NCBI RefSeq assembly: GCF_013388255.1
Contig: NZ_CP058215.1
Coordinates: 1,054,001-1,118,000, forward strand
DNA length: 64,000 bases
From: Methanolobus zinderi
Lineage (GTDB): Archaea > Halobacteriota > Methanosarcinia > Methanosarcinales > Methanosarcinaceae
Direction of reading: 5' to 3'
Shown here: positions 8,523 through 10,073 of the stretch, piece after piece
How positions within the stretch are numbered: position 1 is the stretch's first letter
How the letters are laid out: each line of letters starts with the position of its first letter
Notes under the pieces: model-generated
The model's input: the letters and a program-made list of their open reading frames with translations, nothing else
Database searches by the model: none
Told to the model about the DNA's origin: nothing
Translations under genes and position numbers: made by a program

Positions 8523-9617
8523 GTGTATCGTTTCCAGGAAATAATAGATTCATGTATCGACTGTAAGAAATGCTGGGATGTCTGTCCTGTCAATATGGTG
8601 ACCGACGGGAACAGGTTCACGCCTCAGGGAAAGATCGAATCGCTTGCAAAGATAGTTGCCTGTGAGGAGCTCTCAAAAGATGAGTATGATAACATCTACC
8701 TTTCCACTCGCTGTGGCGCATGCGATGATGTCTGCCCTGTGGATATTCCGATAACAGATATCATCCAGTATGAGAGGCAATTGCTGGCACAGCAGGGTAG
8801 GGAGCCTGCAAAGACCACCGCCATCTCACAGAACATAATTGAGCACAACAGTCCCGGAGCCAAGGATCCGTCTAAGAGGTTTGACTGGGTAACAGATGAC
8901 CTTGACATTGCCGAAAGTTCTGAGATAGCTTACATGGCAGGCTGCTGGGTTTCATACAGCCAGCCGGATATTGCAAGGGCGACCATTCGTCTGCTAAATC
9001 ATGCAGGTATAAGACCCATGATTCTGAAGGATGAGAAATGCTGCGGACTTTTCCTCGTAGATAACGGCCATCTCGAGCAGCTTGCAGAGCACGCTAGGAA
9101 GTTCGTTGATTATATCGAGTCACTTGGAGTGAAGAAGGTAATAGCCTCATGTCCCGGTTGTTACATTGTACTTGGTAAGGAGTATCCGAAACTCTATCGT
9201 GAGCTGAACTTTGAGGTTGAGCATTCCCTTAAAGTGTTCAAAGATATGATAGCAGATGGAACACTCAAACCAAGGAAACTCGATCTGGCTGTTTCTGTCA
9301 GGGATGCATGCCCGATCAGAGGATCAAAGGATATCCCGCGCAGTATTCTTGAAAGCATGGGTGTTGAAGTAAAAGAGCTCTTTGAGGAAAAACAGGTGTG
9401 CTGTGGCGGCCCGGCGGGCCTTAAACCAAATTTCCCGGAGATTGCGAACAATATTGCCATGCTATCGGTTAAAGATTACAAGGATAAAGCTGACATGCTG
9501 GCCTCCTACTGTCCTTTCTGCATGCATCACATGGAGGGTGCGTGCAAGTCAAAGGATGAGGAAATGGAGATGAAGGATATTTCCGTGCTGCTTGCTGAAA
9601 GCGTGCTAGGAAAATGA
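8523..9617 (+). CDS. HdrD/GlpC-like iron-sulfur protein with two CCG domains
   Basis: The protein has two ferredoxin-type clusters (CIDCKKCWDVCP at residues 11-22 and CGACDDVCP about 40 residues later) and two cysteine-rich CCG domains (CCGLF...CPGC and CCGGP...CPFC). This is the layout of heterodisulfide reductase subunit D and GlpC. The long frame from 8376 overlaps the preceding gene in a different frame; GTG at 8523, four bases after GGTGA (8514-8518), is the better start and gives 364 residues; GTG at 8484 is an alternative. It probably takes part in disulfide or thiol electron transfer, with partner unknown. Lacking a neighbouring HdrE or HdrABC, it is an orphan paralog. Confidence 0.82.
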   Translation: MYRFQEIIDSCIDCKKCWDVCPVNMVTDGNRFTPQGKIESLAKIVACEELSKDEYDNIYLSTRCGACDDVCPVDIPITDIIQYERQLLAQQGREPAKTTAISQNIIEHNSPGAKDPSKRFDWVTDDLDIAESSEIAYMAGCWVSYSQPDIARATIRLLNHAGIRPMILKDEKCCGLFLVDNGHLEQLAEHARKFVDYIESLGVKKVIASCPGCYIVLGKEYPKLYRELNFEVEHSLKVFKDMIADGTLKPRKLDLAVSVRDACPIRGSKDIPRSILESMGVEVKELFEEKQVCCGGPAGLKPNFPEIANNIAMLSVKDYKDKADMLASYCPFCMHHMEGACKSKDEEMEMKDISVLLAESVLGK

Positions 9618-9644: not shown

Positions 9645-10073
9645 TCAGGTAAGAGCATATGGGAATTCGGTGAACTTCCACTCATCTTCCTGTTTGACCA
9701 GTTCAATCTGTTTTACAACTTCTTCATGTTCCTATTCGACCTCGAAGAAATCCTTGAGTGAGAATTTTACAGCCACTGAGGATTCGTTAACCAGCACGTC
9801 TACAACTGCAGTATCTCCATCAACATACTCTTCACTAACTTCGATGAATTCATATTTCTCAGGATTTACATCCCTGGAGAGACTTATGAAATCGGCAAGC
9901 CCGGTTTCCTGTTTGTAAGCGGATGACATCATCTGGTAGCAGGTATCATAGTTTCCCTGGTCAAATTCCGATACAAAGTTTTCTACTGTATCTGACGGGC
10001 TGCTTCCAAGACCTGCACAACCGGCTGCAAGCAGAGAAATAAGCAGAATTGTCGTTATTATCATTTTTTTCAT
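9645..10073 (-). CDS. Lipoprotein with in-frame UAG, probable pyrrolysine-containing DUF4878-like protein
   Basis: The gene starts at 10073 with a lipoprotein signal peptide (MKKMIITTILLISLLAAGC, Cys19 as lipidation site). After 113 codons it meets TAG at 9732-9734, but the same frame continues for 28 codons to a TGA at 9645-9647. The extension (…VVKQIELVKQEDEWKFTEF…) is exactly the closing beta strand and Trp-containing end expected of DUF4878/NTF2-like lipoproteins, ending in the usual L-V-K-x-x-x-x-W-K pattern. In Methanosarcinaceae UAG is decoded as pyrrolysine, so the full product would be 142 residues with Pyl at 114. A plain truncated gene is the alternative. Confidence 0.72.

Follow-up and report, generated by a model that had tools for sequence, protein, structure and literature searches.

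The window analysed here, a stretch of 64,000 nucleotides of the Methanolobus zinderi genome (contig NZ_CP058215.1), contains on its minus strand a short lipoprotein gene with an in-frame TAG. The ORF up to the first stop (10073..9732) starts with ATG and comprises 113 codons. Beyond the TAG (9734..9732) the same frame is open for exactly 28 codons and is then closed by TGA (9647..9645). A convergent ORF on the plus strand ends at 9617, and the 28-codon tail overlaps no other gene. The features of the locus are as follows:

9648..10073, minus strand: 142-codon lipoprotein gene containing an in-frame TAG, coding for a DUF4878-like, predicted NTF2-like domain (ORF, Pfam, AlphaFold)
10017..10073, minus strand: signal peptide with the probable lipobox Cys19 (sequence; Gly18-Cys19 invariant in 22 aligned sequences)
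9732..9734, minus strand: in-frame TAG as codon 114 (the nearest relative has Glu, encoded by GAG; other relatives have Pro, His or Ser)
9648..9731, minus strand: conserved 28-codon tail, which in the predicted domain forms strand four and the greater part of strand three (alignment, AlphaFold)
9645..9647, minus strand: TGA terminator (at the same place in the 16 full-length relatives, TGA in 14/16 and TAA in 2/16)

The full protein matched the Pfam family DUF4878 (PF12870) over residues 23–133, across the TAG, with E = 2e-4 and a score of 22.0 bits, which falls just below the curated cut-off of 24.1 bits; hence the protein is named DUF4878-like. When the protein was cut at the TAG, the match shrank to residues 23–57. 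The AlphaFold model of the full-length protein (pLDDT 82) showed helices followed by strands at residues 74–85, 88–103, 111–128 and 131–134, with residue 114 where strand three begins, beside the least certain loop. Foldseek retrieved, at E about 2e-4 and a moderate TM of about 0.5, PBP2a chains (matched range unreported) and NTF2-like proteins, and a weak sequence match to the NTF2-like MecA_N domain was found. The predicted fold of the domain is NTF2-like, and in this model a stop at the UAG would cost strands 111–128 and 131–134, leaving two of the four.

The first-pass annotation had claimed a lipoprotein gene with a TAG at 9732–9734, 28 further open codons and a TGA, and this arrangement was confirmed on the minus strand. 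The lipoprotein identity was upheld by the N-terminus (MKKMIITTILLISLLAAGC), judged from its sequence to resemble a lipoprotein signal peptide, and by the invariant Gly18-Cys19 pair. The assignment of the tail to the DUF4878-like domain likewise held, since the PF12870 match spans the TAG and AlphaFold places strands in the tail.

Conservation of the frame across the TAG

Across 112 genomes of the family, 16 full-length relatives of the lipoprotein were recovered, 15 from the same genus (59–90% identity) and one from another genus (51%). The alignment of homologues across the UAG, proposed in the first-pass annotation as a check, showed that all 16 read on through the TAG place and carry the same tail, and no intact relative ending at this position was found among the relatives aligned. 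The counterpart of the TAG is Glu, Pro, His or Ser in these proteins, and Thr or Ser in two more distant homologues. Thus, among full-length relatives the TAG at codon 114 is private to this genome.

Within the tail, Leu125, Trp132, Phe137-Pro-Tyr, Leu141 and Thr142 are invariant in the 16 relatives. These residues, together with the continuation of the frame in every full-length relative, indicate that the open tail is more than a product of chance. Codon differences in the tail were more frequent at third than at first and second positions in nearly all comparisons, as expected of coding sequence. Over its 28 codons only, the tail differs from that of the nearest relative by two synonymous and two amino-acid codon differences; at both of the latter sites this genome has the residue prevalent in the remaining relatives and it is the nearest relative that deviates, so the tail shows no trace of decay.

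Some homologues are damaged: that in genome G023 (L025) is interrupted by an in-frame TAA and the copy in G050 (L022) is frameshifted, so loss of individual copies is possible. A distant homologue in G026, a genome of another genus with pylS (L026 from position 1501), has its own in-frame TAG in place of the Gln of its relatives; this TAG falls in the same loop, ahead of the last strands.

Pyrrolysine machinery and UAG usage in the genome

The presence of pyl genes, another of the checks proposed, was established, so neither of the conditions that the first-pass annotation had named as refuting was encountered. The pylS gene matched both NCBI models above the cut-off, and downstream of it lie a radical SAM protein gene assigned as pylB by domain and position, a probable pylC, assigned by position and sequence with no Pfam match, and pylD (Pfam). 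A tRNA-Pyl with a CTA anticodon is present, and mtbB of this genome contains its own UAG and a PYLIS_2 element. Among 13 relatives checked, pylS was above the cut-off in 12, the exception being a genome 76% complete. The tRNA-Pyl gene (L060:1465-1536, minus strand) lies about 17 kb from pylS (L035:9486-13788, plus strand) on the opposite strand, and a distance of about 11–29 kb was also seen in other Methanolobus genomes with both genes on one contig, whereas for the family a pylTSBCD cluster without interruption has been described (PMC9499178).

UAG usage was surveyed in stretches amounting to 884 kb (33% of the genome), in which 807 ORFs were picked. TAG ends 108 of them (about 13%), which makes active release at UAG probable. 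An excess of back-up stops behind TAG was not found in the survey (p = 0.48), which gives no evidence that read-through is avoided. TAG acts as a terminator elsewhere: in the gene upstream of the lipoprotein, it occupies in one relative the site of an ordinary stop in another. Only three of the 108 TAG-ended ORFs, namely mtbB, the lipoprotein and a Yip1 membrane protein, have a coding-like tail and an alignment or domain that spans the stop; no Pfam domain across the stop was found among the 10 TAA- or TGA-ended candidates scanned. The other UAG codons of this genome appear to remain terminators. Archaea that read all their TAG codons as pyrrolysine were reportedly described in 2025.

The Yip1 gene (L082:2933-3559, minus strand; G000:C1:467933-468559) has a private in-frame TAG at residue 163, followed by a conserved 46-codon tail. 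The UAG replaces the Trp of the motif LFLL[W]SANIW, which is kept in nine aligned relatives and encoded by TGG in the nearest one. Like the lipoprotein, this is a probable pyrrolysine protein, the second such case in the genome. The Yip1 gene of the nearest relative, from a draft metagenome assembly, holds a TAA, so non-amber lesions occur too.

Several candidates were rejected. A two-sided coding-score scan for TAG over the first 484 kb gave 12 matches, mostly antisense to longer ORFs. Long in-frame extensions after TAG, for example in L045 and L055, appear to be adjacent genes. The best TGA-interrupted candidate (L054:1-369) is probably not a real frame, since most relatives show assorted stops in it. 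Separately, two identical stretches (L045:14915-16660 and L046:16554-18299) contain phosphate-type ABC transporter genes parted by an in-frame TAG, where amber read-through would fuse both permeases.

Probable decoding of the lipoprotein UAG

The UAG of the lipoprotein is probably decoded, at least in part, as pyrrolysine, the 22nd amino acid, a reading drawn from sequence data. The first-pass annotation had proposed a probable pyrrolysine near the C-terminus, and the codon, the conserved frame on both of its sides and the machinery support this proposal. The amber looks like a recent, harmless mutation tolerated by the cell, with no new system involved. A recent single-base change of GAG to TAG would have occurred at a variable position of a short exported lipoprotein, and the suppressor machinery would have made it tolerable. 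Since both pyrrolysine and its CUA tRNA should be available in the cell, ribosomes would insert pyrrolysine at this codon, in competition with the release factor. The products would be the full-length lipoprotein of 142 residues and some truncated form of 113 residues, which would be unable to complete the beta-sheet. Pyrrolysine at residue 114 is probably neutral and without a catalytic role, because the position accepts Glu, Pro, His and Ser. Translation of this UAG, the efficiency of its decoding and its neutrality are what we infer from these comparisons.

No Rfam match for PYLIS was found after the lipoprotein UAG, and no unusual RNA fold was predicted downstream of it (z = −1.08). Pyrrolysine insertion is thought to be a competition of tRNA-Pyl with the release factor, for which an mRNA element is not required (PMC9499178; PMC8211752). 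In archaea with pyl genes UAG is both sense and stop, and an amber codon in the foreign uidA gene was read through at 20–30% in M. acetivorans (PMC2933860).

Among the alternatives, an unlikely one is a very recent pseudogene, in which the TAG would be an ordinary nonsense mutation, the tail would have yet to decay and any read-through would be incidental and useless. The profile search found no full-length copy in 8 of 27 Methanolobus genomes, so the gene looks dispensable at the genus level; the damaged copies in G050 and G023 point the same way, and TAG would in any case account for roughly one in three random nonsense mutations. However, the start, the upstream frame and the tail are intact here, with no second lesion, and the same filter applied to the 884 kb gave two private TAG codons and no confirmed TAA or TGA, a statistically weak contrast. 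A base-call or assembly error of a true GAG is very unlikely: although a single base separates the TAG from the codon of the nearest relative, the assembly is one contig and 99.96% complete, and random errors would equally give frameshifts or TAA and TGA codons, none of which was confirmed in the 884-kb sample.

It is highly improbable that the codon has a selected role, either for pyrrolysine itself or for a ratio of products, for example with the full-length form produced chiefly during growth on methylamines, while the pyl genes are active. The TAG in the same loop of the distant homologue of the pylS-bearing genome G026 would agree with such a role, but none of the 16 full-length relatives has the codon, the residues found in its place exchange freely and no insertion element accompanies it. 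Least probable of all is a growth-dependent switch, with full-length protein only on methylamine-induced pyrrolysine, whose reactive ring would act at the cell surface.

The tolerated amber read as pyrrolysine has a precedent in Thg1 of Methanosarcina acetivorans. According to a review (PMC2933860), its amber is readable as non-essential pyrrolysine and, like that of the lipoprotein, is private, in frame, replaced by sense codons in relatives and outside methylamine metabolism; it was ascribed there to neutral evolution. Thg1 is cytoplasmic and, in the same account, its amber can be translated as pyrrolysine, whereas the lipoprotein is exported and known from sequence. On present comparisons the lipoprotein fits this pattern of neutral amber substitution. 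The methyltransferases MtmB, MtbB and MttB share with it an in-frame UAG, the machinery and the genome, but their pyrrolysine has a catalytic role and is conserved, and mtbB here has a PYLIS; the lipoprotein codon is confined to this genome, occupies a variable position and lacks a PYLIS element. The amber-containing transposases of Methanosarcina also have an in-frame UAG outside methyltransferases; these are mobile-element genes with an amber conserved among copies, in contrast to the single-copy chromosomal lipoprotein gene.

Beyond the methylamine methyltransferases, a 2021 review gives transposases and Thg1 only (PMC8211752). Similar neutral amber cases were proposed in a 2013 screen (PMC3639795), and no proteome-wide pyrrolysine data were found in the literature searched. 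The few candidate pyrrolysine proteins from outside methylamine metabolism are joined by the exported lipoprotein and the Yip1 membrane protein, whose genes define precise peptides to look for. These results suggest that in a pyl-bearing cell amber codons are free to drift into ordinary genes, in which case standard annotation cuts such proteins short.
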